Source: Lewinella sp. IMCC34183 (GTDB taxonomy: Bacteria > Bacteroidota > Bacteroidia > Chitinophagales > Saprospiraceae). From it: a DNA stretch of 64,000 nucleotides. Below, piece by piece: positions 2,719 to 42,683 of the stretch. Made by a program: the position numbers and the translations under genes. Location: NCBI RefSeq assembly GCF_003390915.1, contig NZ_QMEM01000004.1, positions 372,001 to 436,000 of the forward strand, written 5' to 3'. A model generated the notes under the pieces. That model did no database searches, was not told where the DNA came from, and saw only the letters and a program-made list of their open reading frames with translations. Position 1 is the first letter of the stretch. The number at the start of each line of letters is the position of its first letter.

Positions 2719-2793
2719 ACATCGGATGTACCCGACATCGGATGTTGAAAATACGCTCACCATCGCCCGGATTTACGTGACTACATCGGATGT
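2719..2793. repeat. Three ACATCGGATGT palindromes after nhaD, two at 16-bp spacing
   Basis: The 11-bp odd palindrome ACATCGGATGT occurs at 2719-2729, 2735-2745 and 2783-2793. The first two start exactly 16 bp apart with a 5-nt linker (ACCCG), the same geometry as the other pairs in this window. Here both copies have G at the centre, so the pair is a direct repeat as well as two palindromes. They lie in the 411-bp gap between nhaD and the next gene. Confidence 0.85.
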
Positions 2794-2930
2794 GGGTCCC
2801 GCTCAGCGGGCTTCTTCCGGACGGATATTTTTGCAATTCAAAGGCCTAATTGATTGATTACTAATCACTTTACCGGCAACGTGGATGCCAGGTTGATTCC
2901 TGGGCAAATAATTATTTGCTCACCTCTGCC

Positions 2931-2963
2931 TGCACATCGGATGTGGTCCACATCCGATGTGCA
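2931..2963. repeat. 33-bp perfect inverted repeat made of two ACATCSGATGT units
   Basis: Two 16-nt arms are perfectly complementary around a single central T. Each arm contains one ACATCSGATGT palindrome (2934-2944 and 2950-2960), again with starts 16 bp apart. It could extrude as a cruciform or form an RNA hairpin, but no T-run follows, so it is not a standard terminator. The rest of the 2696-3106 gap shows nothing gene-like. Confidence 0.85.
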
Positions 2964-3106
2964 GCTCAACCCTCGCCGAGCCCTTCTTCCGGGTCACCCC
3001 CGATCCCACAACCCCTTGTGCAGCACTACCTCACGGACTATATTACACGTCGTACCCATATGACCAACGGGCTGACGGAGGGCTTCCTGCGGCCATACTT
3101 CCCGCT

Positions 3107-4657
3107 ATGAAGGTTTTCACCTTGCTCCTGCTGTCCTGCATCCTTCTGACCTGCGGCCCTACCGAAGCACCCACCGCGACCGACCTTCCCACCGGGGGAG
3201 CTACCGTCAGCGGACGCGTTGCCGGCGGAGCGGGCGAGTACATCACCCTATTCTACGCTTCTCGGCTGCGGGGTAACCTGAACCCGGACGGCTTCCGCAC
3301 CAAGGGGATGCGCATGGAGCCGGATGGTGCGTTCCACTTTACCGTCGACCAGGTTACGGAAGGCGGCAACTACGCCCTGCGGCTGAAAAATGGCTTCTAT
3401 CCCCTTATCCTTTCGGCCGGCGATGTGCTGTCCCTCACCCTCGATCCCACCAATCCGGATGCCACCATCATCGCCGCGGGTACCGGCGCCGGCAAGATCA
3501 ACTTCCAGCGGCTCGATCAGCTGGACCTTGACTACGGCTACATCGTAGCTCCGGATACCCCGGTGGCGTTCGCCGCCCGGGCCGACAGCGTCGTCGCCGC
3601 CCACCGCAGAATCCTCGAAACGGTCTACGCCGGAGATGTACAAAGCCCCGTAGTGACCGGCGCAAGCAACCAGGCGGACCTAGAACACCTCATGACGCAA
3701 ACGCCCCTTAGCCCGGAGGAATACTCCTACCTGGATCAGCTGCTGCGGCTACGCCGCTTTACCTTCACCGAAAGCTGGCTGTCAGGAATGGCCGATGACC
3801 CAAAACTGGCAGCCCTGCCCATCGACGGTCAGGCTTTCCCGCCCTTTGATGACGCGGCATCGGTCAGACTGAACCACATCAACGATTTCCGGCTGGCCAA
3901 CGGTCTCGAGGCCGTGCTGACCCTGGAGCACGTGAAAGACCTCTCCCGCCGCAGCGATACCCCCCTCACCTACGGAGACTGGCGCGAACGCCTGTGGCAG
4001 GATAGCGGGGACTGGAACACCAATTTCCTGCGGGAGAATTTTCCTGACAACATTTATACCTCCTACTATAGCGCCCTGGCCGGGTGGATGCTCACCATGG
4101 GACAGGATCCCGGCCAATACTACGCCCGTCTCGATCCGGCAGCCGACGGTGCCTTTACCGCTAGGCTACAGCAATTCGAGCACCTGTTGGAGCGGGGAAC
4201 CCGCCTGGAGCAGGGCCTGGAGGCGGACTCCCTTATCCTCGACCAGCCCGAACTGCGGGCCCTGCTGGACCGCTACGCCGGCCAGGAACTGCTGATCAAC
4301 TTCTGGTCCGCGGAGTTTGCCGGCTCCTCCATCGTTGACGACATCCCCCTGATGCAGGACTTTCAGGCACGCAACCGGGGAAAGCTCGCGGTCATCAATA
4401 TATGCGTCGACAGCCTGCGGCACAAAGACCTCTGGGCAGCCCGCATCATAGACAGCGACTGGGACGCCGAACATTACTTCGTGCCGATCGAGGGCAACGA
4501 CGGCCTGCTCAACGACTTCACCGCCCGCAACCTGGCCACCTTCTGTGAGGGCGGCGCTTCCCAGGCATACATCGACGCCCAGGGAACCATCTTCCAGGAG
4601 ATCAATGCTCCTTTCTACAAGCTTGCCGACGAGATCGCACGGGAGGTCCATCCGTAA
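3107..4657 (+). CDS. TlpA-like thioredoxin-fold lipoprotein lacking CxxC
   Basis: The 516-residue product starts at the ATG that opens a lipoprotein signal peptide (MKVFTLLLLSCILLTC); the frame is open further upstream but that part has no signal sequence. After the signal comes a beta-sandwich region resembling the DUF4369 domain common in Bacteroidota TlpA proteins (about residues 30-140). A helical middle follows, then a C-terminal thioredoxin-like domain from about residue 380. Where TlpA has a CxxC active site this protein has FWSAEFAGSS, so it should have no disulfide redox activity. It may be a folding, binding or structural relative at the membrane surface. Function unknown. Confidence 0.7.
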   Translation: MKVFTLLLLSCILLTCGPTEAPTATDLPTGGATVSGRVAGGAGEYITLFYASRLRGNLNPDGFRTKGMRMEPDGAFHFTVDQVTEGGNYALRLKNGFYPLILSAGDVLSLTLDPTNPDATIIAAGTGAGKINFQRLDQLDLDYGYIVAPDTPVAFAARADSVVAAHRRILETVYAGDVQSPVVTGASNQADLEHLMTQTPLSPEEYSYLDQLLRLRRFTFTESWLSGMADDPKLAALPIDGQAFPPFDDAASVRLNHINDFRLANGLEAVLTLEHVKDLSRRSDTPLTYGDWRERLWQDSGDWNTNFLRENFPDNIYTSYYSALAGWMLTMGQDPGQYYARLDPAADGAFTARLQQFEHLLERGTRLEQGLEADSLILDQPELRALLDRYAGQELLINFWSAEFAGSSIVDDIPLMQDFQARNRGKLAVINICVDSLRHKDLWAARIIDSDWDAEHYFVPIEGNDGLLNDFTARNLATFCEGGASQAYIDAQGTIFQEINAPFYKLADEIAREVHP

Positions 4658-4665
4658 CCGCGGTA

Positions 4666-5946
4666 TCATTTCGCTGCAACTCCCCCCCTTTTCTCGATCC
4701 CGACATCGGATGTGGGGTACATCCGATGTCGGGGGACCGCCGCGCGCCGCCGCCACCTTAGCCTCCGCTCGCCGAGATAGGTCAGTGACCGCCACGCCCA
4801 CTCCAGCGGACCCTGCTGGAAATACCTGAGCCACAGCGCGCTCCCGGTCATCTGCACCGCGATCACGGCCACGGCCAGCACCCCGAGCTGGTGGATACGC
4901 AGTACGGAAAACAAGCCGAGCCCCCAGTCGAACAGCAAAAAGGTACCGATCACGGACAGCAGCACGTAGTTTGTCAGCGCCATCCGCCCGTACGGAGCGA
5001 ACATGGTGAGGGCCCGGCGGCCCGCCGCAGTCTGGAACCGGTTAACGAACCAGACGAGCAGCAGCGCGGCGACGGCGACGTTGGTCCAGTCGTAAAAGTT
5101 GAGAGCGACCACCGGCAGCCAGCCCGACCAGTCGAAGGGCTGCTCCGCCTGGCTGAACAGCAACAGCATCAGGACCGTACCCACGCTCAGACCCGTCAGG
5201 CTGCTCCGCACGATCGCTCGCCGCACTCCCCGCAGGTAGCAGGGCCGCGCAAAAAACCGAAGCCGCCCGAGGAGTAGCCCCACCAGAAAGTAGCCGAAGG
5301 TGTAGTAGTACCGGCCGAGCACACCGAGGTAAAGGTTGGCCTTAATGGCCAGTCCGGTAGTGGTATGCCGCCGCGCCAGTTCCCCGAAGCTGCCCTCCTG
5401 CAGGAGGGCCGTGTAGGCGCCTACCGAAGCGTGGTCCGCCTCCAGCACCGGTGCGGCGTCAAAGACCGGGGCATCGCCCCAGATCGCGAACGACAGCAGC
5501 CGGGGCACGCTGAAGAAGCAGCCGGCCACCAGCACCAGCAGCCACCGCGTACGAAGGCGGTCAGCGAGCAGCAGCAGGGGCGCCAGGGTGGCGTAAATCA
5601 GCAGTATATCCCCCCGGTAAATACACTGGTGCAGGAAGCCGATGCCGGCCAGGAGGCAGGCACGCCAGACGTACCGCGCTGCGAAGGATTCCCCGCGTTC
5701 GGCGGCCGACTGCCGCATCAGGTAAAAGCTCAGCCCGAACAGGATCGAGAACAAGGCAAAGAACTTGCCGAAACTGCTCCATAACAGTGCGCGAAAGGCA
5801 AGGTCTACCCACCCGTGATCGATGCGCGCCAGGGCCTCCGGGGCCAAGAGACCGCCCCCGAACCGCTCCAGGAAGTGCACGAGGCCCACCCCCGCGAGGG
5901 CAAATCCCCGCAGGGCGTCGATCGCTTCGATACGTGGTTGCGGCAT
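4666..5946 (-). CDS. DUF418-family multi-pass membrane protein
   Basis: The 426-residue product begins with a polar stretch IEAIDALRGFALAG, the hallmark N-terminus of DUF418/DUF1624 membrane proteins, and contains about ten hydrophobic segments. The family's role is not firmly known; related proteins are acyltransferase-like. The C-terminal DUF418 domain ends near GPLEWAWRSLTYLG. The remaining ~35 residues are basic and low in hydrophobicity, and are partly encoded by the palindromic repeat at 4699-4733. The ancestral stop was therefore probably upstream, and the repeat has extended the protein. The gene is convergent with the preceding lipoprotein gene, with 8 bp between stops. Confidence 0.8.
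   Translation of the reverse strand: MPQPRIEAIDALRGFALAGVGLVHFLERFGGGLLAPEALARIDHGWVDLAFRALLWSSFGKFFALFSILFGLSFYLMRQSAAERGESFAARYVWRACLLAGIGFLHQCIYRGDILLIYATLAPLLLLADRLRTRWLLVLVAGCFFSVPRLLSFAIWGDAPVFDAAPVLEADHASVGAYTALLQEGSFGELARRHTTTGLAIKANLYLGVLGRYYYTFGYFLVGLLLGRLRFFARPCYLRGVRRAIVRSSLTGLSVGTVLMLLLFSQAEQPFDWSGWLPVVALNFYDWTNVAVAALLLVWFVNRFQTAAGRRALTMFAPYGRMALTNYVLLSVIGTFLLFDWGLGLFSVLRIHQLGVLAVAVIAVQMTGSALWLRYFQQGPLEWAWRSLTYLGERRLRWRRRAAVPRHRMYPTSDVGIEKRGGVAAK
4699..4733. repeat. Paired ACATCSGATGT inverted repeat inside the end of a gene
   Basis: Perfect 15-bp arms, CCCGACATCGGATGT (4699-4713) and its complement (4719-4733), flank a GGGGT loop. The two 11-bp cores start 16 bp apart. The element sits between convergent genes but is translated as part of the C-terminal tail of the DUF418 gene on the minus strand. 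Confidence 0.9.
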
Positions 5947-6132
5947 GCTACGGTAATGCGGAAACGACTGAACGGTTCTCGGACCAGCGTCACCTGGAAG
6001 ACCCGCGCCGCGCCGGGGCTTCCCCGCCCTATGCCTTGCTTCTCAGCGGGGAAGCCGCTATCTTATACAGGACACACCGGCCGGTCCCACCCACTACGGT
6101 ACGGACCGGGTATAAACACACTATACAACGCC

Positions 6133-6513
6133 ATGCACGCATCCTACCTGACCTCTCTTCTGCTCTTCTTCGCCGCCGCCTCCACGCTTTCCGCCCAATC
6201 GCTCACCGGCCAGTGGACGTATGCCCTGACAACACCCTCGGGTGAAACCCTGCACAACCTGCTCATCGTGAAGGACGACGGCACCATCACCATCGACATG
6301 GGCACCGACGGGGAGGTGGACGTGGTCTCCGAGTATACCATCGACGGTAACGAGATCACCGTTCACGCTACCGAGGCGGAAGATCCCTGCTACGATACCC
6401 CGGGCGTATACCGATTCACCCGCGAAGGTGATACCGTAACCCTGACGGCCATCGACGACCCCTGTGAAGCCCGCAACCAGGGCGCCCCGACAACCATGAC
6501 GTTGGTGGAGTAG
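6133..6513 (+). CDS. Small secreted protein, lipocalin-like size and pattern
   Basis: The 126-residue product has a signal peptide (MHASYLTSLLLFFAAASTLSAQ) followed by about 105 residues of alternating beta-strand pattern beginning LTGQWTY. Two cysteines (in EDPCYD and DDPCEA) could form a disulfide. The opening G-x-W motif recalls lipocalin-like folds, but no specific family is recognised. The first ATG with a signal peptide was taken as the start, although the frame is open far upstream. Confidence 0.7.
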   Translation: MHASYLTSLLLFFAAASTLSAQSLTGQWTYALTTPSGETLHNLLIVKDDGTITIDMGTDGEVDVVSEYTIDGNEITVHATEAEDPCYDTPGVYRFTREGDTVTLTAIDDPCEARNQGAPTTMTLVE

Positions 6514-6577
6514 CCAGGGCTCTAGGCTTGCGCCCGATGGGCAGCAAGGCGTATTTTCGATTCCTAAACGACAGCGT

Positions 6578-7159
6578 ATGAATCCGAAAGTAGATCGGTT
6601 CCTGGACCGACAGCAAGATTGGCGGGAAGAGATGCTGCTCCTGCGTTCGCTGCTGCTCGATTGCGGGCTGGATGAGACCATCAAATGGGGCAAACCCTGC
6701 TACACCTACGCGGGCGGCAACGTCGCCATCCTGCAGGGCTTTAAGCGGTATGGTGCCCTGCTCTTCTTCAAGGGGGTCCTTATGAAGGATCAGAACGGCA
6801 TTCTCACCCGACCGGGAGAGAATAGCCGCGTCGGACGGCAATTCCGCTTCGAACAGCCCACGGACATTACCAACCTGGAACCGGAACTGAGGGACTACAT
6901 CCGGCAAGCCATCGAACTGGAACGGGCGGGGACGCAGGTGCCGGGGATAGCGGATGAGGAGCTAACCCTTCCGGATGAGGTCCGCGAAGTCTTTGCCAAT
7001 GACCCCGAGCTGCAGGCCGGCTTCGAGGCGCTCACGGCCGGGCGGCAACGGGGCTACCGTCAGTATTTCTCCTCGGCCAAGCAGGCAAAGACCCGTACGG
7101 CCCGGGTGGAGAAATGCCGGGAACGGATCCTGTCCGGCCGGGGGTACAACGAGCGGTAG
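6578..7159 (+). CDS. YdeI/OmdA-type protein with DUF1801 domain
   Basis: This 193-residue cytoplasmic protein has an N-terminal DUF1801-like domain (ETIKWGKPCYTYAGGNVA, then FFKGVLMKD) and a C-terminal Lys/Arg-rich helical part ending YRQYFSSAKQAKTRTARVEKC. This is the layout of YdeI/OmpD-associated proteins. The biochemical function of the family is not known. A TATTTTCG box (TAnnTTTG type) lies just upstream. Confidence 0.8.
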   Translation: MNPKVDRFLDRQQDWREEMLLLRSLLLDCGLDETIKWGKPCYTYAGGNVAILQGFKRYGALLFFKGVLMKDQNGILTRPGENSRVGRQFRFEQPTDITNLEPELRDYIRQAIELERAGTQVPGIADEELTLPDEVREVFANDPELQAGFEALTAGRQRGYRQYFSSAKQAKTRTARVEKCRERILSGRGYNER

Positions 7160-7161
7160 GC

Positions 7162-7176
7162 GCACATCCGATGTGC
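7162..7176. repeat. Single ACATCCGATGT palindrome between convergent genes
   Basis: GCACATCCGATGTGC is an odd palindrome of 15 bp centred between the stops of two convergent genes (7159 and 7183). It is a solo copy of the family found in pairs elsewhere. Confidence 0.8.
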
Positions 7177-7182
7177 ATTCCG

Positions 7183-10100
7183 CTACTGCTTCGCCACCCT
7201 GCTTTGGTGGATCACCTTGCCCTCCCGTCGTAGCGTTAGCCAGTACAGGCCCGGCACGCACCGCTCCATGTCCAGCCGGTGCGGAATCTTACCGCCCCCC
7301 TCCAGCGGGCCCGTCAGAACGACCTGCCCCCGGGCATCCGTCAGCGTGAAGGTGGCCGTACCGGCCACCGCCCCGTCGTACGTCAGCGTCAGGGCCGTCC
7401 GGACGGGGTTGGGGTGGATAGAAAACGACTCGGGTGCGGTGGATCGGACGGTGACTATTCCGGAGTAGATCGCTCCGCCGTCGAAATCCACCTGTCGGAG
7501 CCGGTAATACACAACGCCCGTCCCCGGGGCATCGTCCGCATACGTGTACGCGAGTAGGTTGCGACTGTCTCCGGCCCCCGCCACGAAGCCGATAGGCCGG
7601 AAGAAATTGCCGTCGGCGGAGCGCTCGACCTCGAACCCCCGGTTGTTGGTCTCGCTGGCCGTCGTCCACCGCAACGCTACCCTACCGTTCACTTGCTCGG
7701 CCCGGAACGAAAGAAGCGCCGTAGGCAGCACGGCGGCGGCGCTCACTACTGCGGCCACCGTGACCGGGTCGGAAGTGCAGGTGCCGTTGGAGGACGTGAC
7801 GGTATAATCACCAGCGTTATCGAGGGTAGCGTCGGGGATGGTCGGGTTCTGTTCGGTTGAGGTGAAGCCGGCGGGGCCCGTCCACGAGTAGCTAACGCCT
7901 TCGCGGTAGTTGGCCTTCAGCTCGATCGTCTCTCCGGCACTTACCGGCCGCACGCTGGCACCGTACAGGCTCGTCAGGTCATCCGCGGTGATCTCGGTGG
8001 AGTAGTAAATGTTGATATCGTCCAGTGCTCCCTGGAAATGGTGGCTGGTGGGCTGATCCGGCCATCCCGCGAGGTTATCGTAGCCGATCCGCCAGTAGCC
8101 GGGGACCGTATACTTTTCCCCTTCCGTCACGGTTGCATCGCTTGCCTGTAATACCCCGTCGATGTATAATCTGATCCCGCTCGGCGACAGGATGGCCACG
8201 GCGTTGTGCCAGGCCCCGTCGTTGTAGGAATCATCCGTCGCAATGATCCGGTGGGTATCGATGAAGATGCCGAAGACGACGCGCCCGTCGTTGGTCATGT
8301 AGATGTGCCTGTCGTACTGTCCGCTCGCCTGGTACTGATTCGTGCCCAGCCCCAGCATTTTCCCCCCCTGGGTGGTGGTAGTGTTGAACCACACACTCAG
8401 CGAGAAAATATTCGTACCCTCAATGTCGGTGGGAAACGAGGTACTGGTGGTGATGAAGTCGTCCACCCCGTCAAAGTTGTAAGCACTGTTGGCCTTACCA
8501 AAACGGTCCGCCGTCAGCGTAGCGCCGTTGACGATACCGGTATTGCCCTTACCGGTCGCGTCCGTCGCGTTGCCGTGGAAGGGGTAGGAACTCGTCAGCC
8601 CTGTGGTGTTGGCCTGCGCCAGCTTGTTGGAGCTGGCCGTCACCGGGGCCCGCTGGCTTTCTTGCTGTTGCGGACTCACGGCGGCCACGTAGTAGGTCCG
8701 GGTGACGTCAACCGGGGGCGTGGTATACTCCGCTGCGGTTTCGCTGGCGATCGGCGTACCCCCCATGGGGACGGTGTACCACCGGTACGTGCCGCCGTCC
8801 GGGGTTCCCGCGGCGGATAAGGTCACCGGTTCTCCGCAGCTGTACGCGCCGGTGGTGGCCGGCACCACGTAGACGTGGACGGTGGAAGAAACGGTCACGG
8901 ATTCGTCCTGGTGATAAATACGGGCGTGCAACTCGTAGTTCCCGGCGGGAAGGTCCGTCACCGCTACGGTATAGTCGAAGGGGGCGGCGGTGCGGGTATC
9001 CACCACGCCGTCGTCAACCAATAATTCAATGCGTGACACGTCGTTACCGGCGGCCGAGCCCGTTATTTCCACGTCCAGCGTACCCGGTGCGGTGTACGTC
9101 GACCCAGCGACGGGGGCCGTGATCACGTTGGCCCCCTGGGAGCCGTACACTTCGAACTCGTACAGGGAGTACCCGAAGGAATTCGACGCCCGGGTGGTAC
9201 CGTACATCCTTACGTAGCGGCCCGAGCCGGTCAGGTGGTTCAGGTCATTCACCAGGTTGTTCCCCAGCCCGGAATTATTCGTCCCGCTGGCGATCGTGGT
9301 CCAGTCCACAGCATTGTTTGACAGGTCGATGCGGTAGTTGCCCGCGTAGGCTCTTTCCCAGGTAAGTTTCACCCGGTCGATGGTGTATTCTTCCCCCAGG
9401 TCGACGTATATCCATTGCGGATCCACGTCGTGTACACTTTCCCACCGGGTAGCAGGATTACCGTCAAAAGCGAAGGCGGCCGGCTTTTCGCTACTGGATG
9501 CGGTGGCCGGCGCATTGAGCGCAACGTTTACCGCATTGACCGATATCCTGACCGGCGTGGAAACGGTCAGCAAGCCGTCGCTATCGGTAGCCCGGGCGGT
9601 AAGCGTGTGCGTTCCGGCGGGGGCATCCGGCCAGGTGTAGGAAAAGGGAGCGGTAGTTGTTGAACCCAGATAAGCGTCGCCGCTGTAAAAATCTACCTTG
9701 GTGATCGTCTTACCGTCCTTTGCCGTGGCACTGGCGGTCAACGTGATGGTGTCGGGGAGGGTCACGACGGTCCCGCTGGCCGGTGCGGTAAGGCTTACGT
9801 CGGGGGCGCTCGCGTCGCCGTACACCTCGAATTCCCACAGCGAATAGCCGAATTCCGTGCCGCGGGCGGTTCCGTACATCCTGACGTATCGTCCTTCGCC
9901 GGTCAGGCCGGTGAGGTCATTGTCCAGGGCGGTGTTGCCGGTAACCGTCTGGATGGTTTGCCAGGTACCGGCGTCGTCCGATACCTGGATTTGGTAGTCT
10001 TTTCCATAGGCGCCCTCCCACGCCAGCCTGACCCGGCTGATCCTCTGTGTCGCGCCGAGGTCTACCTGTATCCACTGGGGATCTACCTTGACCACGCTCT

Positions 10101-10308
10101 CCCAGCGGGTGTCGGATGGGTTCCCGTCGACTGCGAGGGCGGCAAGGTTACCGTTTATCTCGGAGGAGGCCAGGATCTCGCGATTAAGGGCTAGGTTTGC
10201 GGTTCCCTGGGCAGTGGCCACGGAAGTATAGGGTAAAAGCGCTACCACCAGAATGCATATTACCTGACGGTACTGACCTGCGAACAGGCCCCTGATGAGA
10301 TTACTCAT
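7183..10308 (-). CDS. Secreted multi-domain adhesin: discoidin, Ig-like, LamG, T9SS sorting domain
   Basis: This protein of about 1041 residues starts at the ATG opening MSNLIRGLFAG, which gives a signal peptide ending VATAQ. Domains in order: F5/8-type discoidin (about 35-165), bacterial Ig-like (170-255), second discoidin (260-390), another Ig-like module (390-485), a short PKD-like stretch, a LamG/concanavalin-A-like domain (about 590-740), an Ig-like module (770-830) and a T9SS type-A sorting domain at the end (IHPNPVRTALTLTYDG to SRVAKQ). No catalytic domain is visible, so it is probably a surface-anchored glycan-binding or adhesive protein exported by T9SS. It is convergent with the YdeI gene and divergent from ogt. 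Confidence 0.88.
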   Translation of the reverse strand: MSNLIRGLFAGQYRQVICILVVALLPYTSVATAQGTANLALNREILASSEINGNLAALAVDGNPSDTRWESVVKVDPQWIQVDLGATQRISRVRLAWEGAYGKDYQIQVSDDAGTWQTIQTVTGNTALDNDLTGLTGEGRYVRMYGTARGTEFGYSLWEFEVYGDASAPDVSLTAPASGTVVTLPDTITLTASATAKDGKTITKVDFYSGDAYLGSTTTAPFSYTWPDAPAGTHTLTARATDSDGLLTVSTPVRISVNAVNVALNAPATASSSEKPAAFAFDGNPATRWESVHDVDPQWIYVDLGEEYTIDRVKLTWERAYAGNYRIDLSNNAVDWTTIASGTNNSGLGNNLVNDLNHLTGSGRYVRMYGTTRASNSFGYSLYEFEVYGSQGANVITAPVAGSTYTAPGTLDVEITGSAAGNDVSRIELLVDDGVVDTRTAAPFDYTVAVTDLPAGNYELHARIYHQDESVTVSSTVHVYVVPATTGAYSCGEPVTLSAAGTPDGGTYRWYTVPMGGTPIASETAAEYTTPPVDVTRTYYVAAVSPQQQESQRAPVTASSNKLAQANTTGLTSSYPFHGNATDATGKGNTGIVNGATLTADRFGKANSAYNFDGVDDFITTSTSFPTDIEGTNIFSLSVWFNTTTTQGGKMLGLGTNQYQASGQYDRHIYMTNDGRVVFGIFIDTHRIIATDDSYNDGAWHNAVAILSPSGIRLYIDGVLQASDATVTEGEKYTVPGYWRIGYDNLAGWPDQPTSHHFQGALDDINIYYSTEITADDLTSLYGASVRPVSAGETIELKANYREGVSYSWTGPAGFTSTEQNPTIPDATLDNAGDYTVTSSNGTCTSDPVTVAAVVSAAAVLPTALLSFRAEQVNGRVALRWTTASETNNRGFEVERSADGNFFRPIGFVAGAGDSRNLLAYTYADDAPGTGVVYYRLRQVDFDGGAIYSGIVTVRSTAPESFSIHPNPVRTALTLTYDGAVAGTATFTLTDARGQVVLTGPLEGGGKIPHRLDMERCVPGLYWLTLRREGKVIHQSRVAKQ

Positions 10309-10399
10309 TGGTTTAGGTTCAGACGACAACTGATCGATTCCAACCAAATAATTGGAATGATTGGGTTAACGGTGTCCGTCCTCTAAATATTGACTTGGC

Positions 10400-10429
10400 C
10401 TGCATTTGAAAATGCAGGACATCCGATGT
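10400..10429. repeat. Hairpin plus solo ACATCCGATGT in a divergent promoter region
   Basis: CTGCATTT-GA-AAATGCAG (10400-10417) is a perfect inverted repeat. One base later lies ACATCCGATGT (10419-10429). Both sit in the 240-bp spacer between the divergent adhesin and ogt genes, a place where an operator would be plausible. Confidence 0.65.
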
Positions 10430-10536
10430 GCGGGCGGGGTCGCGGGTGCCGGGTCTGTCCAGTAAGGAGCCACGCCTACCGGGAGTAGAACCAGCAATCA
10501 TTCGCCCTGGGAAGCGGCCAATCATCTCTCCGGCCT

Positions 10537-10544
10537 TACCTTGA
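10537..10544 (+). promoter_or_regulatory. Promoter -7 box TACCTTGA for ogt
   Basis: TACCTTGA matches the Bacteroidota TAnnTTTG element except at the last two positions and ends only 4 nt before the GTG start, implying a leaderless or nearly leaderless mRNA. No clear -33 TTG was seen. Confidence 0.45.
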
Positions 10545-10548
10545 TCGG

Positions 10549-11025
10549 GTGAGACGAATTATTCCCAGCCCCCTCGGCCCCATCGAGCTGCGGGCCACCG
10601 ACCGGGGCCTGAGCCACGCTACCTTTCTGGATGAACCACCATCGCACGAGCAGGCCTGGGACCCGGATACGCCCGCCGGTGGTCACCTGGCCCTGGCCGC
10701 GGAAGAGTTCAACTCCTACTTCGCCGGCAACCGCGCGCCATTTACCGTGCCTCTCGATCCCGGGGGGACCGACTTCCAGCGGGCCGTATGGACAAAGCTC
10801 CGGGCCGTACCCCGCGGGTATACCACTACGTATGGCGAGCTGGCCCGGGCTGTCGGTAACCCCAACGGCAGCCAGGCGGTGGGGGCGGCCAACGGGCAAA
10901 ACCCGCTCGCCGTGATCGTTCCGTGTCACCGCGTGGTGGGCACCGACGGAAAACTTACCGGCTACGCGGGAGGTATCGAACGGAAAACCTGGCTGCTGCG
11001 GCACGAGTCAGCTGCCCTGTTCTGA
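10549..11025 (+). CDS. ogt: Methylated-DNA--protein-cysteine methyltransferase
   Basis: The 158-residue protein carries the suicide active site IVPCHRVVG near residue 125, followed by TGYAGGIERKTWLL, the usual helix after it. It removes O6-methyl groups from guanine (and O4-methylthymine), transferring them irreversibly to its cysteine. The length matches Ogt/MGMT without an Ada regulatory domain. The start is GTG; the promoter box lies directly upstream and no earlier start would fit behind it. Confidence 0.92.
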   Translation: MRRIIPSPLGPIELRATDRGLSHATFLDEPPSHEQAWDPDTPAGGHLALAAEEFNSYFAGNRAPFTVPLDPGGTDFQRAVWTKLRAVPRGYTTTYGELARAVGNPNGSQAVGAANGQNPLAVIVPCHRVVGTDGKLTGYAGGIERKTWLLRHESAALF

Positions 11026-11336
11026 CCGTCAGCCTTTTCCCCGCGACCGATTTGCGCCCCGGAACGGCATATCGGCGTCACCGGCGTGTCAATTTAGTAT
11101 CGTTTTGTGATTTTCCCCGCACCCGCGCGCCGCCGCCGCCCCTTTCCAAAGCGAAATATTCATACGCTACGGGAAGAAAAATGACCGGTTCGGGTATGCC
11201 GGTCCGCTTTTCCACTATAAAATTCGCTTTGGCATTTGGTCACCGGGCCGGGCAATAGTAATACTGCCGCACCCGCGAAGCATTTATCCACCCCTTCCCG
11301 CGAAATACATTTGCTGTCACTAGCCGCCGGCTTCGC
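11026..11336. other. 311-bp intergenic stretch with one promoter-like box
   Basis: Apart from TACATTTG at 11306-11313, a good TAnnTTTG match placed 23 nt before the next ATG, nothing specific is seen here. The stretch is more AT-rich than its surroundings. Confidence 0.5.
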
Positions 11337-11717
11337 ATGACGCTTCTGTACCTGATCCTTGCCCTCCTTTCGGGCCTCGCACCGCGGGGAATGGATACGG
11401 TATCCCAGACCACGGCCGGCGAAGTTTCCTATTCAGCCCGGCTCGCGGATGACGACCACGCGGTGATGTACCAGGCTCCCCACGGTCAATCGCACCTCCC
11501 CGAATCCCCCGCCGAGCGGGAAGAAGAGGAAGTTCGCGAATTCAAGGGATACGACGCGCATTCCCCCGCCGTGCTGCGGACCTGCCTGTCGTTTTTGGCT
11601 GCCTTCCTGGAGCCGAGCCCCTGCCTGGCGAGTCCGCCGCAGGTGCTGCGCAAGCCCATAGTAGAGCCCGTCGTGGCTACCTCCCGTACTATCCTGCACC
11701 AGGTTTTTGTGATCTGA
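11337..11717 (+). CDS. Small hypothetical exported protein upstream of efflux operon
   Basis: The 126-residue frame begins with a hydrophobic signal-like segment (MTLLYLILALLSGLAP). It then has a polar acidic middle (AEREEEEVREF) and a C-terminal half with two cysteines. A good promoter box stands 23 nt upstream. No family is recognised. Position directly before an RND efflux operon suggests a partner or a co-transcribed leader gene, but the 189-bp gap leaves that open. Confidence 0.5.
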   Translation: MTLLYLILALLSGLAPRGMDTVSQTTAGEVSYSARLADDDHAVMYQAPHGQSHLPESPAEREEEEVREFKGYDAHSPAVLRTCLSFLAAFLEPSPCLASPPQVLRKPIVEPVVATSRTILHQVFVI

Positions 11718-11906
11718 CCGCCACCCTTCAGTCGGTTCGGTAACTGATCTCCAGTCGCCGCACGCCTCCTTTCTCCGGAGCGTTTCAACCGGTCATTTCC
11801 CCTCCCCTGCTTTTCTGACGCGTCACCCCGCAGGTGACTTCCGTCTCCGCATCCGGCTCCGCCGGCACTCTACCTCTTTTCCGTTTACCATCAACTAAAC
11901 TCAAGA

Positions 11907-12989: not shown

Positions 12990-13015
12990 TCGCCTAACCC
13001 CAAAAGAACCGTCCC

Positions 13016-17618: not shown

Positions 17619-17645
17619 TGGAGTGAGAACAGTTTAGTTGATTGG

Positions 17646-17698
17646 GCCCCTTCCCTGGGCAGCACGACCTCGGTCACGCTTCGGGGGAGGGGCTTTTT
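17646..17698 (+). terminator. Intrinsic terminator of the efflux operon
   Basis: The stem GCCCCTTCCC (17646-17655) pairs with GGGGAGGGGC (17684-17693, one G-U), followed by TTTTT. It lies 28 bp after the outer-membrane factor stop. Confidence 0.85.
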
Positions 17699-17711
17699 AC
17701 GTACCTGACCC

Positions 17712-18716: not shown

Positions 18717-18726
18717 AGCGCAGGAA

Positions 18727-26181: not shown

Positions 26182-26199
26182 TTCTAGGTCACTAAAGTA

Positions 26200-27972: not shown

Positions 27973-27980
27973 GAGAGGTA

Positions 27981-29129: not shown

Positions 29130-29133
29130 GCCC

Positions 29134-29141
29134 GAAAGGTA
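29134..29141 (-). promoter_or_regulatory. Promoter -7 box TACCTTTC for purK
   Basis: On the minus strand TACCTTTC, one base off TAnnTTTG, ends 4 nt before the purK ATG, again suggesting a leaderless mRNA. Confidence 0.5.
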
Positions 29142-29226
29142 CGCAAGGCAACACAACCCGGCGTGGATCGCAGCCGCCGCCCTCCTCCGCCGGGGGTCGC
29201 GCTACCGGGAGTGAGCTACCGGTGGA

Positions 29227-29631: not shown

Positions 29632-29703
29632 GCTACTGTGGGTTTAGTTGCTGATTACTACCTGCTTGCCCGTGGACCCGCCGGGGTGGGGCAAACCCCG
29701 CCG

Positions 29704-30219: not shown

Positions 30220-30272
30220 AGTGGGTGTTTGAAGTTACGATGCCGCGGACCCGGATTTTGGTGGGCGGACCC

Positions 30273-30308
30273 AAAAAAAACGCCCCCCGGAAGGTATTCC
30301 GGGGGGCG
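30273..30308 (-). terminator. Strong terminator of hppA
   Basis: On the minus strand the 12-bp perfect arms CGCCCCCCGGAA / TTCCGGGGGGCG flank a 4-nt loop and are followed by eight T residues (A-run at 30273-30280 on the plus strand). It lies 25 bp after the hppA stop. Confidence 0.92.
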
Positions 30309-30333
30309 TGTCCTGGCGGACGGTGGCCGCGGC

Positions 30334-32595: not shown

Positions 32596-32726
32596 AAATT
32601 TTAGGGAGATTAACTTGTTTTGAAGAAAGAGGTGAGATCCGTCTTCGATGACAAGCGATCTAGATGGCCGCGAAAAAATCGCGCTTCAAAAGTTCGATGA
32701 TCGAGATTGCGCAGACAAAATAGTAA

Positions 32727-33881: not shown

Positions 33882-33916
33882 ATGCGGGGAGATTGGTGTG
33901 GGTGCGCGCGGCGGCG

Positions 33917-35964
33917 TTAACGCTTGACCAGGGGCTGCAGGGTGGTCCCCTGCGGGCTGGCCAGACGAAGATAGTAGGTACCGGCCGGTACATTATCCAG
34001 CCCGGCCGACAGGGTGTACAGTCCGGCCACCTGCCGCCCCGTACGGAAGACGCGGAGCTGCCGGCCGGTCGCATCTAGCAGATCGATGGTCATCGTGCCT
34101 CCCACCGGCAGTGAGTACCTCACGCGGCTGGCGTTGCCGGTAAGGGTTAGGCGCTACCGGCAGTACCGTCGGCCCGGATACGGTAGAGGTCGCGGTTCCC
34201 AGGCCCGGGGGACCGGCCGGGGCGGGCGTATCGGTGCGGGCCTTGCCCGCCGCCGGGGCGTCCGCAGTCTGCAGGTGGTTGCTTACGGCGGCCTTGCGGA
34301 AACCGGCGGCGAAGGTTTCCGTGGTCGACCGTTCCAGGATCGGCGAAGAGAAGTAATCGACCGTGATACTATCCGGCCGCACGTCGAGCACATAGTAGCC
34401 GTGGTCGGAGAGGTTGGCGTATTTCATGTGGGGGTTGGGGACGCCCAGGTTGAGGCCAGGCTTCGGACTTAGCTCGGTGATGAGCTGTTCGGCCAATTGC
34501 TGCGCGACTTCGCGCCCCGTGGCTTCGTCGAAGTTGGCGGCCGAGATACTCGGGATAGCGAATTCCAGCGCCACCGTGCCCGCGCCCGTTTCCGGATCGT
34601 AGGCGGTTGGCGTGTATATCGGTACCCGGCCCAGGGTGCCCTCCGTCCGGAAGGAGAGTTCGTTGGCCGGTACCGCCACCTCGAAAGCGAGAGCCGTATG
34701 GAAGTCGCCGGTCAGGATGACCACGTCATGGATGCCCAGCGAGTCGATCCGGTCGACTATTCGCTGCCGCGCGGCGGGGTAGCCATCCCAGATGTCGAGG
34801 AAGTCGCTTTCCACACTTTCGTATGGCCACTGCAACTGGAGGCCCGCCCAGTCCATGTTGAATTCGGAAAAGATCACCTGGTGACCGATCAGCTTGTACC
34901 GGGCGGTGGAGGAGGCCAGTTGATCCAGAAACCAGGCGCGCTGCTCCTCGCCAAGCAGGGTACGGTCCGCCGCCTGCAGGGCGGGATCACTAACGTCCTA
35001 GATCTGCGCCTCGCGACCCTCCAGGCGGGTTATCCAGCATGATGAGGTCCGCCAGGTCCCCGTAGGAGATCGTGCGGTAAATGCTGCGGTTTCCCGTTTC
35101 GCGGATCGGCAACCGTTCGAAGTAGGCCCGCCGCGACCATTCCTTGCGGTCGGTCCAGCTGCCTTCGTCGCCGGGCTGGTGATTGCTCGCGCCCGTTTCG
35201 TAGCTGTCGTTGGCCGACTCGTGATCGTCCCACACGGAGATGATGGGGTGTTGCTGGTGCAGGTGCCGGAGGTCACTGTCCAGGCGGTAGGTGGAGTAGC
35301 GGTTGCGGTAGTCTTCCAGGCTCACGATTTCCCGGTCCGGCGCTACGATCCGGTCGTCCCAGACTTCGGTGTTTCCGTATTCCCGGTTGGCGTATTCGTA
35401 GATGTAGTCGCCCAGGTGGATCACCGCCTCCAGGTCGTTACGCTCGGCCAGGCGGCCGTAGGCGTTGAAGTAACCGGCCTGAAAGTTGCTGCAACTCACC
35501 ACGCCGAAGCGCAGGTGGTCGGCCGTTGCGCCGGTCGGTGTCGTTTTCGTGCGTCCGGTCAGGGAATCGCGGCCGAGGGCCGAAAAGCTGTAGTAGTAGG
35601 TAGTGGCGGGAGCCAGCCCGTCCACGTCTACCTTGACGGTGTAGTCGGTTTCGCCTTCGATCGTGAAGGTGCCCTCCTGTACCAGGTCTTCCAGTCCGGG
35701 ATCGGTGGCCACGCACCATTCCCCCCTGATGCTCCGCCCGTCGACGGTGTCCGGCGTGACCCGCGTCCAGAAGATCACCCGGTCGGCCAGCGGATCCCCG
35801 GAGGCTACGCCGTGGTAGAAGGGCCGCAGGTCGGCCTCCGCGAGTTGCGGCCGGGCGCCCGTCCAGGGCCGCGTGTGCGTAAAAAGGGTTTGTGCGGGTA
35901 CGCAGGTGCAGTAGAACAGGGCAACTAACAGCGTAGACAGGTAAGCGGGGCGGATAGCAGTGAG
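33917..35964 (-). pseudogene. PhoD-like alkaline phosphatase with T9SS domain, inactivated
   Basis: Read in three frames, the minus strand encodes a signal-like stretch ending CVPAQ, a PhoD N-terminal domain (FYHGVASGDPLADRVIFWTRVTP) and the metallophosphatase core (HLGDYIYEYANREYG; SVWDDHESANDSYE). The late motifs (LTGDFHTALAFEV) and a T9SS sorting domain ending TLQPLVKR follow. Three lesions break it: a frameshift near 35027-35034, an in-frame TAG at 34998-35000 (before DVSDP), and a frameshift near 34141-34149 at the start of the sorting domain. No ordinary start codon precedes the signal stretch. PhoD enzymes cleave phosphodiesters and monoesters. Sequencing error could explain one lesion, hardly all. 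Confidence 0.82.
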
Positions 35965-36044
35965 GTCTCCGGTAAGGTAAGGTGTGGCGGGCAGGCGCCT
36001 GCCCCCGGGCGAAAGTGGCTGCTCCGGTATTTCTCTAAAGCCCC

Positions 36045-36052
36045 TATATTTG
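36045..36052 (+). promoter_or_regulatory. Promoter -7 box TATATTTG of the methionine operon
   Basis: TATATTTG is a perfect TAnnTTTG match. Transcription should start around 36057-36060, so the RNA would begin with the hairpin at 36061 followed by the riboswitch. Confidence 0.75.
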
Positions 36053-36060
36053 TGCCCCAT

Positions 36061-36084
36061 CCCGCAGCCGTGCGGGCTTTTTTT
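36061..36084 (+). promoter_or_regulatory. Terminator-like hairpin at the 5' end of the riboswitch leader
   Basis: CCCGC-AGCCGT-GCGGG-C is followed by seven T residues, exactly like an intrinsic terminator. It lies between promoter and aptamer, with no plus-strand gene upstream to terminate. The last four T of the run are also the 5' strand of the aptamer's closing helix. The arm CCCGC recurs in the aptamer's 3' hairpin (36169-36183). It may act as an attenuator, protect the 5' end, or form an alternative fold. Confidence 0.6.
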
Positions 36085-36193
36085 ATAACGAAGGGTGGAG
36101 AGATCAGGCTCTGCGAAACCCTGGCAACCACTTTCCCGATGGCTTGGGAAAAAAGGTGCCAACGCCTGTCCCGCTTGGCGGGAAACTATAAAA
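36081..36193 (+). promoter_or_regulatory. SAM-I-clan (S-box) riboswitch
   Basis: The leader has the S-box core: AGGGTGGAGAGATC, AGGCTCTGCGAAACC, CTGGCAACC and GGTGCCAACGCCTG in order, matching the conserved P2/J/P3 core that binds S-adenosylmethionine. The closing helix is TTTTATA (36081-36087) with TATAAAA (36187-36193). A TCCCGC-TTG-GCGGGA hairpin precedes its 3' strand. The start codon of the first gene follows by 10 nt, so control of translation initiation is plausible. Upstream of met genes it should reduce expression when SAM is plentiful. Confidence 0.88.
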
Positions 36194-36203
36194 TCATACT
36201 GCC

Positions 36204-39034
<2,831 letters not shown>

Positions 39035-39054
39035 TCATCCATAATTGACGAATC

Positions 39055-39525
39055 ATGACCCCCGATCTATACAAGGACCAGTACGAGGTGCTGCACGGCC
39101 AGATGCCGATGTACGGCAAGGGTGTGCAGGAGAGCCTGGAGCCTATCCCGGAAGAGGATTTTCACCGGCCGGTAGGGCACCGTACCATCGCACAGCTCGT
39201 GGCGCACATAGTGGCCTGGCGTCGCAACACTGCCCTGCGACTGCAGAAAAAGCCCCGCCCACAGATCGAACTGGGCTCACCCGTGGACTGGCCGGACTAC
39301 TCCGGGAAAACCAAGGCGGAGATGCTGGATGAACTGGCCGAGACCAAGGAGGAGATGCTGCAGGCCCTCGATGCGTTTGACTACGGTAGCCTGGAAGAGA
39401 AGGTACACCCCGACCACTACTACCACTACCGTCACGTGATCGACGGGGCCATACAGCACGACGTATACCACCTGGGACAGATCAACCTGATCGCCAGTGT
39501 GTTGCGCTTCGGTCGAAACCAATAA
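39055..39525 (+). CDS. DinB-family putative metal-dependent hydrolase/transferase
   Basis: This 156-residue four-helix protein has the DinB metal triad: His51 (LVAHIVAW), His135 and His139 (HDVYHLGQ). Characterised relatives are thiol-dependent (bacillithiol- or mycothiol-type) S-transferases or maleylpyruvate isomerases. It lies between metY (20 bp) and metX (17 bp), so it is co-transcribed with methionine synthesis genes, possibly handling a low-molecular-weight thiol. Confidence 0.85.
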   Translation: MTPDLYKDQYEVLHGQMPMYGKGVQESLEPIPEEDFHRPVGHRTIAQLVAHIVAWRRNTALRLQKKPRPQIELGSPVDWPDYSGKTKAEMLDELAETKEEMLQALDAFDYGSLEEKVHPDHYYHYRHVIDGAIQHDVYHLGQINLIASVLRFGRNQ

Positions 39526-39542
39526 TCCCAGAACCGCTTCCC

Positions 39543-40643
39543 TTGACGCGCTACCTGTACATCGAACACCCCTTCCAGCTGGAGTCTGGCTCGGTACTGC
39601 CCAACCTCACCGCGGCCTACGACACCTTCGGTACGCTGAACGCGGCCCGCGATAACGTCATCTGGATCTGCCACGCCCTGACCGCCAACAGCGACTGCGA
39701 AGACTGGTGGCCGGGACTGGTGGGGCCGGGCTGCACCATTGACCCGGAACGCTACTTCATCGTGTGCGTCAATATGCTGGGCAGTACCTACGGCAGCAGC
39801 AGCCCGCGCAGCCAAAACCCCGCCACGGGCCGGGCCTACGGGCTCGAGTTTCCGCTGGTGACCACCAAGGACAACGCCCGCTTCTTCTCGCTGGTCGCCA
39901 ACTACCTGGGTATCGGCCGCGTGCGCTTACTTATGGGCGGCAGCATGGGCGGGCAGCATGCCCTGGAGTGGGCCAGCCTGGAGCCCGACCGCTTCGACCT
40001 GCTGTGCGTACTGGCCACCAACGCCCGCCACTCGGCCTGGGGAATCGCTTTCAACGAGAGCCAGCGGATGGCCATGCGGGCCGATCCGACCCTCGGTACG
40101 GACGCGCCCGACGCCGGCAAGGCCGGCCTGGAAGCCGCCCGCGCCGTCGCCATGCTCTCCTACCGCCACTACCGGACCTACGTGGGTACCCAATCGGAGG
40201 AGGAAGCCGACAAGTACGACGACTACCGCGCCAGCAGCTACCAACGGTACCAGGGCTACAAGTTGTGGAAGCGGTTCGACCCCGTATGCTACTACGCCCT
40301 ATCCCGGGGCATGGATAGCCACGACGTGGGTCGGGGCCGCGGGGGCGTAGCCTCCGCGCTGGGCCGGATCAAGGCCCCTACCCTGGTCATCAGTATCGAC
40401 ACCGACATCCTCTTCCCGATCGAGGAGCAGGCCGTGATCAGCCGGCACATTCCTAACAGCCGCCTGGAAGTGATGCACTCCGACTACGGTCACGACGGCT
40501 TTCTGACGGAGGCGGTAAAGATCGGGGAGTTCCTGAGCGATTTCCTGGGAGATCAGCTGCGGATCGACGCTACGACCAAGCGGGCCTTTACCGATGCCCT
40601 CACGGGACGGAAGTTCGCGGTACCGGGGTCGGAGGAGGTTTAG
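39543..40643 (+). CDS. metX: Homoserine O-acetyltransferase
   Basis: This 366-residue alpha/beta hydrolase has the MetX nucleophile elbow GGSMGG (Ser134), the late aspartate region (SIDTDILFP) and the catalytic His (SDYGHDGFL). It transfers acetyl from acetyl-CoA to homoserine, the first committed step to methionine. The start appears to be TTG (39543); no ATG precedes the conserved YIEHPFQLESG. It is the last gene of the SAM-regulated operon; the repeat array begins at its stop codon. Confidence 0.93.
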   Translation: MTRYLYIEHPFQLESGSVLPNLTAAYDTFGTLNAARDNVIWICHALTANSDCEDWWPGLVGPGCTIDPERYFIVCVNMLGSTYGSSSPRSQNPATGRAYGLEFPLVTTKDNARFFSLVANYLGIGRVRLLMGGSMGGQHALEWASLEPDRFDLLCVLATNARHSAWGIAFNESQRMAMRADPTLGTDAPDAGKAGLEAARAVAMLSYRHYRTYVGTQSEEEADKYDDYRASSYQRYQGYKLWKRFDPVCYYALSRGMDSHDVGRGRGGVASALGRIKAPTLVISIDTDILFPIEEQAVISRHIPNSRLEVMHSDYGHDGFLTEAVKIGEFLSDFLGDQLRIDATTKRAFTDALTGRKFAVPGSEEV

Positions 40644-41199
40644 GGTTGCTGGGTGCTGGGTGCTGGTTGCGGGTTGCGGGTTGCGGGTTGCGCCGATCGT
40701 CTCCCTGGAAGGCCAGCGGAGGTCATCGGATGCGAGACGCGCGCAGCAAGGCCTCATCCGATGACCGGAGCGAGCTGGTTGCGGGTTGCGCCGATCGTCT
40801 CCCTGGAAGGCCAGCGGAGGTCATCGGATGCGAGACGCGCGCAGCAAGGCCTCATCCGATGACCGGAGCGAGCTGGTTGCGGGTTACCTGTTGCGCCGAT
40901 CGTACCCTGGAAGGCCAGCAGAGGTCATCGGATGCGAGACGCGCGCAGCAAGGCCTCATCCGATGACCGGAGCGAGCTGGTTGCGGGTTGCGGGTTGCGC
41001 CGATCGTCTCCCTGGAAGGCCAGCAGAGGTCATCGGATGCGAGACGCGCGCAGCAAGGCCTCATCCGATGACCGGAGCGAGCTGGTTGCGGGTTACCGGT
41101 TGCGCCGATCGTACCCTGGAAGGCCAGCAGAGGTCATCGGATGCGAGACGCGCGCAGCAAGGCCTCATCCGATGCCCGGAGCGCACGGGTTGCGGGTTG
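40644..41199. repeat. Five-copy ~100-bp tandem repeat array with inner inverted repeats
   Basis: Units starting at GCCGATCGT recur at 40692, 40790, 40895, 40999 and 41104 (spacings 98, 105, 104, 105). Each unit contains the arms GGTCATCGGATG and CATCCGATGACC separated by 22 nt, and is joined by one to three copies of a GGGTTGC heptamer. The array starts with GGGTTGC/GGTGCTG-type repeats directly after the metX stop and ends at the stop of the convergent lysozyme gene. The CATCGGATG core is the same as in the dispersed ACATCSGATGT family. There are no unique spacers. Confidence 0.95.
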
Positions 41200-41916
41200 C
41201 TAGTTGATGGCCAGGGGATCGTGCACGGTAGCCGGATAGGGTACGCAGAGCGAATCCAGCTGGGCCAGGGTACCCGAAAAGACGTTGCGGTCCACGGCAC
41301 CGACGATGCCGGGCGACGCCGCCCGGTCGGTGTATTGCCAGAACTGGAAGGGCCGGCCGCAGACGGTCACGGGCTCGTGGTCATTGTAGCGCGCCAGCCA
41401 GAGCGGGTACTCGTTAAATTGACCGGCCAGGTGACGGTTATAGAAATTAAGGCCGGTATACAGGATGGGCTTGACGCCGTAGTGATCTTCGGCCAGGCGA
41501 AGCCACTGGCGTACGTGGGCGACAAAGTCCGGGCCGGAAAGATCACCGCGGTTTTCCACGTCGAGGACGGGGGGCAGATCACCGGGCTGCAATTTTACCA
41601 GGTCGATGAAGTTGCTCAGCTGCCGCTCCACGCTGGTATGGGGCAGGAAAAAGTGGTAGGCACCACGGCGAATCCCGGCGCGGCCGGCCTCGGCCCAGTT
41701 GGCGCGGAAGGCGATATCACGGTGCGTCCAACCCTCGGAAGCCTTGATGAATACGAAGTGGTGGCCGGCGTTGGCCACGCTGTCCCAGTTGACCACCCCC
41801 TGGTAGCGGCTGACGTCCAGGCCGGACACCGCGTACCGCTCACTCACCTCCTCCTTGCCACACGCCGACAGTAGCGCGCAGAGGAGCAGACTCAGGATGA
41901 AGCGGGATTGGTTCAA
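41200..41916 (-). CDS. GH25-family lysozyme lipoprotein
   Basis: The 238-residue protein has a lipobox (LLSACG, Cys19) and a glycoside hydrolase 25 domain: GLDVSRYQGVVNW at the start, FIKASEGWTHRD, RRGAYHFF, the catalytic acid pair in PVLDVEN and FWQYTD near the end. It should cleave the MurNAc-GlcNAc bond of peptidoglycan at the periplasmic face or on competitors. The stop codon lies exactly at the border of the tandem repeat array. Confidence 0.92.
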   Translation of the reverse strand: MNQSRFILSLLLCALLSACGKEEVSERYAVSGLDVSRYQGVVNWDSVANAGHHFVFIKASEGWTHRDIAFRANWAEAGRAGIRRGAYHFFLPHTSVERQLSNFIDLVKLQPGDLPPVLDVENRGDLSGPDFVAHVRQWLRLAEDHYGVKPILYTGLNFYNRHLAGQFNEYPLWLARYNDHEPVTVCGRPFQFWQYTDRAASPGIVGAVDRNVFSGTLAQLDSLCVPYPATVHDPLAIN

Positions 41917-41984
41917 GGGGTTATGTTCGCTAATTGGTACTGTAATTTACGAAAAAAGGGCGTGGACAGATGCCCTGAGGAAAA

Positions 41985-42563
41985 TTATTCTCCTCCCAGG
42001 ATGCCCCGGATGTTCCAGTTCACTTGCTCGCCGGTGATGTCCCGGAAGCTTGCCCACTGGTTGGGGTTGGTGGCCAGCCGGAGCAGGTCGCCGTTGGAGT
42101 TGTAGGTGCGCCCGGCGTCGCACCCCACCGAGAATGGCTCTCCGTCGGGCAGCACCACTTCGACCGCCAGCCACAGGCCCTGGCCGTCGATCTCGAGGCC
42201 CGGGATGACGCGGTCCTCGATCCAGCGGTTGGTCGTGATGCGGTTGGTCATGGGCTGCCGGTAAAGTTCCGCGCCGGGCGTGCGGTCGTCGGGTCCCTCT
42301 CCGTAGACTACAACGGCCGTGGAGTCCGGTATGGTGTTCAGGTAGAACCGGATACGCTCGAGCGTGCGGCCCGTATACTGCTGGGTAACGGAGGGAGGGA
42401 AGTAGGCGGCAAACATGTTCTTCCCGGGCGGCAGCTGGGGCGCGGAGACGGGGTCCCCGTCGTAGTTGAGGGTCGTGGCGACGGCGGGGTCGTCCTTTTC
42501 ACAGCTCGTCCAGAGAAGCAGCGGTGCGGCGAGGAGTAACAGGAAGACCAGGGAAGATTTCAT
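41985..42563 (-). CDS. Hypothetical lipoprotein, beta-rich
   Basis: The 192-residue product starts at MKSSLVFLLLLAAP with a lipobox (LWTSC, then EKDD). The remainder is beta-strand rich, with the pattern YTGRTLERIRFYLNTIPDSTAVVVYGEG. That resembles accessory domains of Bacteroidota secreted proteins rather than an enzyme. No function is recognised. It lies 69 bp upstream of the lysozyme gene on the same strand. Confidence 0.7.
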   Translation of the reverse strand: MKSSLVFLLLLAAPLLLWTSCEKDDPAVATTLNYDGDPVSAPQLPPGKNMFAAYFPPSVTQQYTGRTLERIRFYLNTIPDSTAVVVYGEGPDDRTPGAELYRQPMTNRITTNRWIEDRVIPGLEIDGQGLWLAVEVVLPDGEPFSVGCDAGRTYNSNGDLLRLATNPNQWASFRDITGEQVNWNIRGILGGE

Positions 42564-42646
42564 GGGCGGGGGCATTAGGAAGCAAGATCGTATATAAGAC
42601 GTTTCAACGGGCCCCGGGGCTGCTTAAGGATATACTAAAGTCTGCT

Positions 42647-42683
42647 GGCGCACATCGGATGTCCCCGACATCCGATGTGCGCC
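42647..42683. repeat. Paired ACATCSGATGT inverted repeat upstream of the MATE gene
   Basis: Perfect 16-bp arms, GGCGCACATCGGATGT (42647-42662) and its complement (42668-42683), flank a CCCCG loop. Cores start 16 bp apart. It lies in a divergent promoter region, 13 bp before the MATE gene's -7 box, so it could be an operator. Confidence 0.9.

Follow-up and report, generated by a model that had tools for sequence, protein, structure and literature searches.

The window analyzed here is a 64,000-nucleotide stretch of the genome of Lewinella sp. IMCC34183 (contig NZ_QMEM01000004.1, positions 372,001 to 436,000). Its subject is a short odd palindrome, ACATCSGATGT, which we consider together with a transposase gene of the REP-associated tyrosine transposase (RAYT) type, REP standing for repetitive extragenic palindrome. 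The window holds 11 exact matches, all of them where the original prediction had placed them, including four pairs with starts 16 bp apart and the linkers ACCCG, GGTCC, GGGGT, and CCCCG. In 100 shuffles of the window the mean was 0.02 and the largest count 1. The elements are listed below with the central base of each palindrome (G or C) and the linker of each pair.

2719..2745, unstranded, pair G-ACCCG-G with 16-bp spacing, imperfect (centre G opposite G); a called stop lies 23 bp before
2783..2793, unstranded, single palindrome (G)
2934..2960, unstranded, pair G-GGTCC-C, perfect inverted repeat with the stem extended 4 bp outward
4703..4729, unstranded, pair G-GGGGT-C, perfect inverted repeat extended 4 bp outward, within the 3' end of a DUF418 gene
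7164..7174, unstranded, single palindrome (C) in a convergent gap of 23 bp
10419..10429, unstranded, single palindrome (C) in a divergent gap
42652..42678, unstranded, pair G-CCCCG-C, perfect inverted repeat extended 5 bp outward; the called MatE start is 30 bp further on

Three of the four pairs are G then C and perfect inverted repeats, while 2719/2735 is G-G and not perfect. The copies had been described as lying between genes, which applies to nine of the 11: the last ca. 20 codons of the DUF418 gene (called at 4666-5946, minus strand) hold those at 4703 and 4719.

Genome-wide (G000; 5,103,941 bases [5.10 Mb] in 57 contigs, genus Neolewinella), we counted 221 copies versus none for the reversed control, an excess over chance of the kind predicted. 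A unit of only 11 bp might suggest chance, an assembly artefact, or ordinary simple repeats, but the counts in the window and in the genome already refute this, and the same family is present in separate assemblies of relatives, so that we give it practically no weight. Two palindromes lay 2 to 30 nt apart at 89 places, with a 5-nt linker in 44 of the 50 listed, and 56 of 90 neighbors within 260 bp in the sampled part of the genome (≤1 mismatch per copy) had the 16-bp spacing. The expected concentration at 16 bp is thus there, but as a fixed pairing it is typical of G000, the sampled relatives having mostly 33 and 26 bp. By gene calls made with a home-made codon model, exact copies fell inside genes in 18 of 145 sampled cases in G000, 2 of 94 in G017, and 1 of 88 in G013 (relatives named below). 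Eleven of the 18 belong to one array with an exact 525-bp period inside called genes (L100, G000:C44:172392-177652), which is probably a repeated coding unit. The sites occur in convergent, divergent, and tandem gene arrangements, and G000 has the high-copy extragenic palindromes expected of REPs and of REPINs (REP doublets forming hairpins).

The commonest unit in G000 is an 11-5-11 inverted doublet fit for one hairpin. Leaving out the 525-bp array, the 54 sampled 16-bp pairs comprised 40 G then C, 9 CC, 3 GG, and 2 CG. Within the 40 G..C pairs, complementarity of the outer flanks ran at 0.70 to 0.82 at positions 1 to 4 (expected, 0.45 to 0.50). In the linker, bases 1 and 5 could pair in 0.78 of cases (expected, 0.46), bases 2 and 4 in just 0.47 (expected, 0.40). 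The extension of each palindrome on its own was barely raised (0.54 versus 0.48 at position 1), which gives little support to two independent palindromic sites per pair. Because the outer flanks and linker ends covary and the own extension hardly rises, a pair resembles a single stem closed by a loop of ca. 3 nt, the form expected of a REPIN. The constant geometry with varying linkers had been taken as a sign of a protein-binding or structural element. Simple copying is indeed insufficient, but one hairpin fits better than two independent operator sites, and sequence varying outside the conserved 11-mers of one hairpin accounts for both the geometry and the changing linkers.

The short loop of the perfect inverted repeats and their frequent position close behind stop codons would also suit RNA elements, that is, transcription terminators or 3'-end stabilizers. 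However, TTTT was found within 22 nt on either side of only 6 of the 54 pairs, and divergent positions account for 10 of the 36 16-bp-pair sites classified in G000. RNA elements would not predict the helical phasing described below either, and we consider them very improbable. The original prediction that a plain terminator role does not suffice thus holds, and we reject terminators as the main role.

The candidate for a cognate transposase came from G017, in which a stretch of ca. 680 bp between two doubled palindromes has an open frame with a product of 184 aa. This protein matched NCBIfam REP_Tyr_transpos (E 9e-11, with E 1e-11 in a further RAYT search, both below the curated cutoff) and Pfam Y1_Tnp at E 0.008 only. 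Among 60 genomes searched, that of the window included, there were six close genes (≥48% identity), in G017, G013, G007, G001, G000, and G020, the next match by E-value being 37% identical. We infer the names N. marina for G017, N. litorea for G013, N. xylanilytica for G007, Lewinella sp. IMCC34191 for G001, and N. antarctica for G020. Of 36 RAYT loci, one of them with an internal stop, coordinates were obtained from 35, and 27 went into an alignment. Both HUH histidines, the tyrosine, and one asparagine are invariant in the 27 (motifs NHFH, FQ, and Y[VL]HxN[PA]; H-to-Y distance of 75 residues), and their profile found TnpAREP (4er8) at E 1.3e-11, followed by five chains labeled only transposases.

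All six close genes are flanked by palindromes on both sides (L064 to L069), a Y1/HUH transposase gene between repeats being characteristic of REP/REPIN systems. The flanking palindromes are ACATCSGATGT at L064, L066, L067, and L068, ACGTCSGACGT at L065, and of the TCATCGGATGT type at L069. In G017, G013, G007, and G001, the gene lies between the same two neighbors. In G000 these neighbors enclose palindromes without a RAYT, and the RAYT sits between palindromes elsewhere, where its left neighbor matches a palindrome site of G013. The cognate RAYT of G007 (L066, G007:C2:877239-877754) has one internal TAG. The first Pfam RAYT candidates (16 stretches, L048 to L063) are other RAYTs and were rejected as cognate, since no exact ACATCSGATGT occurs in those stretches. 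Two other RAYT-like genes of G000, L108 (C52:287823) and L113 (C34:871055), had no ACATCSGATGT-type palindrome in the parts displayed and sit among different repeats and palindromes, which suggests several RAYT-repeat systems within one genome.

At least 40 copies of ACATCSGATGT were present in four of the 60 genomes (G000, 221; G017, 120; G007, 74; G001, 40) and 0 to 5 in the others. G013, where ACGTCSGACGT flanks the RAYT, has just five, together with 96 copies of ACGTCSGACGT versus 0 to 6 elsewhere. Five of the 60 genomes therefore have at least 40 copies of either palindrome, and all five carry the close RAYT; the sixth carrier, G020, shows TCATCRGATGT doublets beside its RAYT and, in a 240-kb sample, at a single further place. 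Across the 60 genomes the family is tied to a single RAYT clade, and the palindrome sequence differs with the RAYT.

At the window's own 42652 site, a MatE match at the cutoff was found in 18 of 21 genomes of the genus (3 had none). Elements were present in five of the 18 (G000, G001, G007, G013, and G017) and absent from 13, in a comparison of the junction that was not made gene by gene in every genome and in which at least G002 differs in its upstream DNA. They are composites with 33-bp arms (see below) in G013, G017, and, in degenerate form, G001, and a three-palindrome form in G007. In the MatE species tree, the branch joining G000, G013, and G017 is poorly supported, as are several other branches.

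Neighboring palindromes in the relatives were 33 bp apart in 31 cases in G017 and 33 in the G013 stretches, and 26 bp apart in 7 and 12 cases, respectively (≤1 mismatch). Many of these pairs build composites of two 33-bp pairs around a core (palindrome-33-palindrome, core, palindrome-33-palindrome), and a composite often takes up almost the whole intergenic gap. Their inner distances step by ca. 10.5 bp, with R values of 0.91 in G017 (14 composites), 0.78 in G013 (15 composites; a distance of 78, below 90, was left out), and 0.83 for the three relatives pooled (39 composites). The phase fitted on G017 and G013 also fits G001, whose exact positions were already known when the test was run: all 10 composites were within 1.7 bp (p 3e-5). 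Matched composites are related by descent, and in a nonredundant set of 16 distances R was 0.90.

The base composition of the cores follows the same period. In G017, G013, and G001, A/T peaks at ca. 66 to 69, 76 to 79, and 87 to 90 bp from the start of the outer palindrome, a signal at 10.5 bp that none of 2,000 shuffles reached in each of the three species. AA/TT ranged from 0.65 at the first peak down to 0.04 where it was lowest, G/C varied in counter-phase, and single composites agree in their A/T phase (R 0.84 to 0.88). A wedge model gave a mean net bend of 59 degrees versus 30 for shuffled cores, with 35 of 37 cores above. As controls, the DNA outward of the composites had a weak signal at most (scan p 0.12; p 0.0175 at 10.5 bp) and that outward of 26-bp pairs had no A/T signal (scan p 0.19; p 0.42). 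A motif anchored at the midpoint was sought in the composite cores, and none was found. A general periodicity of ca. 11 bp is known in bacterial genomes; the particular feature of the composites is its lock to the arms. In G000, A/T is also phase-locked inward from the units (46 arms; 0 of 2,000 shuffles), in a test that omits the first four positions because G/C bases adjoining the palindrome distorted the signal. That dissimilar cores are phased in this way suggests that the bracketed DNA may work as a duplex. The structural element or nucleoid-protein site of the original prediction thus holds up in part: a duplex-DNA protein is suggested by the phasing, which is strong in the three relatives and partial in G000, where the A/T lock is present but the length stepping is not.

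Eleven composites could be matched between G017 and G013, eight by both flanking genes and three by one. The inner distance agreed within 1 bp in eight of them, the others differing by 19, 11, and 11. Matched cores were 0.54 identical versus 0.50 for nonorthologous ones, and just one of 11 exceeded the nonorthologous 95th percentile; the cores are therefore almost without remaining similarity. At these sites, all 44 palindromes of G017 are of the ACATC..GATGT type, while G013 has 38 of the ACGTC..GACGT type, six hybrids, and none of the old type (types set by bases 3 and 9 only). ACGTC is probably derived, since ACATC is common to G000, G001, G007, and G017. The arms at matched sites of the two species thus appear to have changed sequence together. 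These two relatives give a before and after at the same sites, and a third, G007, adds a RAYT with an internal stop; they bear on the benefit of RAYTs to their hosts and on the sequence switching of REP families.

Helical phasing with phase-locked A/T, which suggests a complex on duplex DNA, and matched junctions that keep their geometry while the cores diverged would both be compatible with operators or nucleoid-protein sites for a duplex-DNA-binding protein of the host, selected and coevolving with it, among which the RAYT landed as a bystander. We consider this unlikely. High copy number is tied to one RAYT clade among the 60 genomes, the RAYT is flanked by palindromes at two different loci, and no copy is present at the MatE site in the 13 genomes mentioned above. 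The sites also include convergent gene ends, without an obvious promoter to regulate.

We favor, with a probability of about 0.83, the reading that the palindromes are repeat units of a RAYT-linked REP/REPIN-like family without a GTAG tag, with copies that are overwritten in situ and enclose wrapped or looped DNA. The HUH/Y1 RAYT would recognize the palindrome in hairpin form, would have spread it into gene junctions, and would keep writing over old copies in situ. The DNA between the arms may be wrapped or looped as a duplex with both arms facing one side, held by the RAYT, gyrase, or another nucleoid protein; whole-turn lengths with phased A/T are a sharp physical signature pointing to such a DNA-protein complex. 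The 16-bp doublets of the window would be the compact form, in G000, of the same kind of element. The small mobile palindrome with a RAYT-type transposase that the original prediction had offered is upheld insofar as the palindromes lie on both sides of the genes of a RAYT clade and occur together with that clade.

Several observations weigh against this reading. No movement was observed, only occupied versus unoccupied matching sites, and the copies at matched sites could be reinsertions. The RAYT scores are under the curated cutoffs in both NCBIfam and Pfam, 14 of the 54 pairs are not G..C, and a GT[AG]G tag at the foot was found in none of the 40 G000 G..C pairs, unlike in canonical GTAG REPs. 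The G000 gaps are not length-stepped (23 gaps; R 0.26 at 10.5 bp, 0.26 to 0.40 over 10 to 11 bp), and the A/T lock there has about half the composite strength (1.77 versus 3.66). Moreover, HUH/Y1 enzymes are known to use single-stranded DNA, and from this no helical phasing would be expected.

A bolder version, which we hold only tentatively and would not bet on, is that the RAYT turned the junctions into DNA-wrapping modules, in which paired palindromic arms would hold cores that keep nothing but the helical design, with A/T every 10.5 bp and whole-turn lengths, and otherwise drift near saturation while the RAYT renews the arms and the genome-wide set switches together. If true, a transposase would have been domesticated as a caretaker of chromosome architecture.

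Among known systems, the family resembles the REPIN/RAYT (TnpAREP, REPtron) elements as described in PMC3116915, PMC3686654, and PMC8266576: extragenic inverted palindrome doublets as hairpins, a flanked RAYT, preferred inter-REP distances, and covariation of RAYT and REP. It differs in having no GT[AG]G tag, a perfect odd 11-bp palindrome, spacings of 16, 26, or 33 bp, and, in the relatives, doubled arms around helically stepped, A/T-phased cores. By eye, the outer palindrome is immediately preceded by gtag in 2 of 28 arms in G017, 2 of 26 in G013, and 2 of 20 in G001. TnpAREP subclass 2.6 (RAYT group 5) of Bacteroidetes, according to PMC6006769, lacks GT[AG]G, is flanked by "atypical" structures that recur in the genome, and has a 21-aa insertion in its signature. 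Phylum, lack of GT[AG]G, flanking structures of that kind, and a long HuH-Y distance (75 here versus a median of 82) are shared with it, but its motifs, NH[LIV]H / WQ / YIH[QN]NP, are not ours. Judged by described motifs, the family is perhaps near this subclass.

The closest parallel to the switch is the orthoswitch of Nunvar and colleagues, in which syntenic RAYTs of related strains have different flanking REP classes and new REP variants partly replace old ones; its authors call the molecular mechanism a matter of speculation (PMC3686654). Here, in contrast, the change can be followed at each single palindrome of 11 matched composites, with the geometry mostly kept and no old-type copy left. 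For the phasing, PMC6379681 describes an E. coli gyrase motif with 10.75-bp periodic GC content within 130 bp, and BIME-2 (bacterial interspersed mosaic element) REPs enriched in gyrase sites. Our composites are likewise intergenic, and the A/T period of their cores resembles the periodic arms of that motif; unlike there, the periodic DNA here lies between palindromic arms. Neither REP composites of helically stepped length nor an ACATCSGATGT family turned up in the literature searched, which left most subscription journals outside.

Some further arrangements depart from these patterns. Palindrome spacing in G007 is looser (22 to 26, 33 to 34, 40 to 44, and 53 to 57 bp), with 8 of 22 neighbors less than 60 bp apart at 26 or 33 versus 153 of 170 in the other four genomes; the contrast is weak because it concerns one species, the spacings were chosen after viewing, and four more pairs are at 34. 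Three loci of G017 (L120, C16:199258; L121, C16:217534; L126, C18:223418) have arrays of C-type palindromes every ca. 122 bp, and their same-strand order sets them apart from the inverted composites. Within the window, positions 40723-41175 hold five tandem units of ca. 104 bp with TCATCSGATGM pairs 31 bp apart, within GGTTGC-rich repeats. TCATCSGATGM is a related second palindrome family, also found in L032 next to the main one. Finally, a CTACCTTCG-type sequence precedes the MatE start codon in the window (42680-42712) and at L234, L235, L236, and L241, the variant at L241 being GTACCTTCG, and in each case the end of the element lies just upstream of it. This sequence resembles a Bacteroidota -7 promoter box, and the MatE-junction element may therefore sit in promoter DNA.

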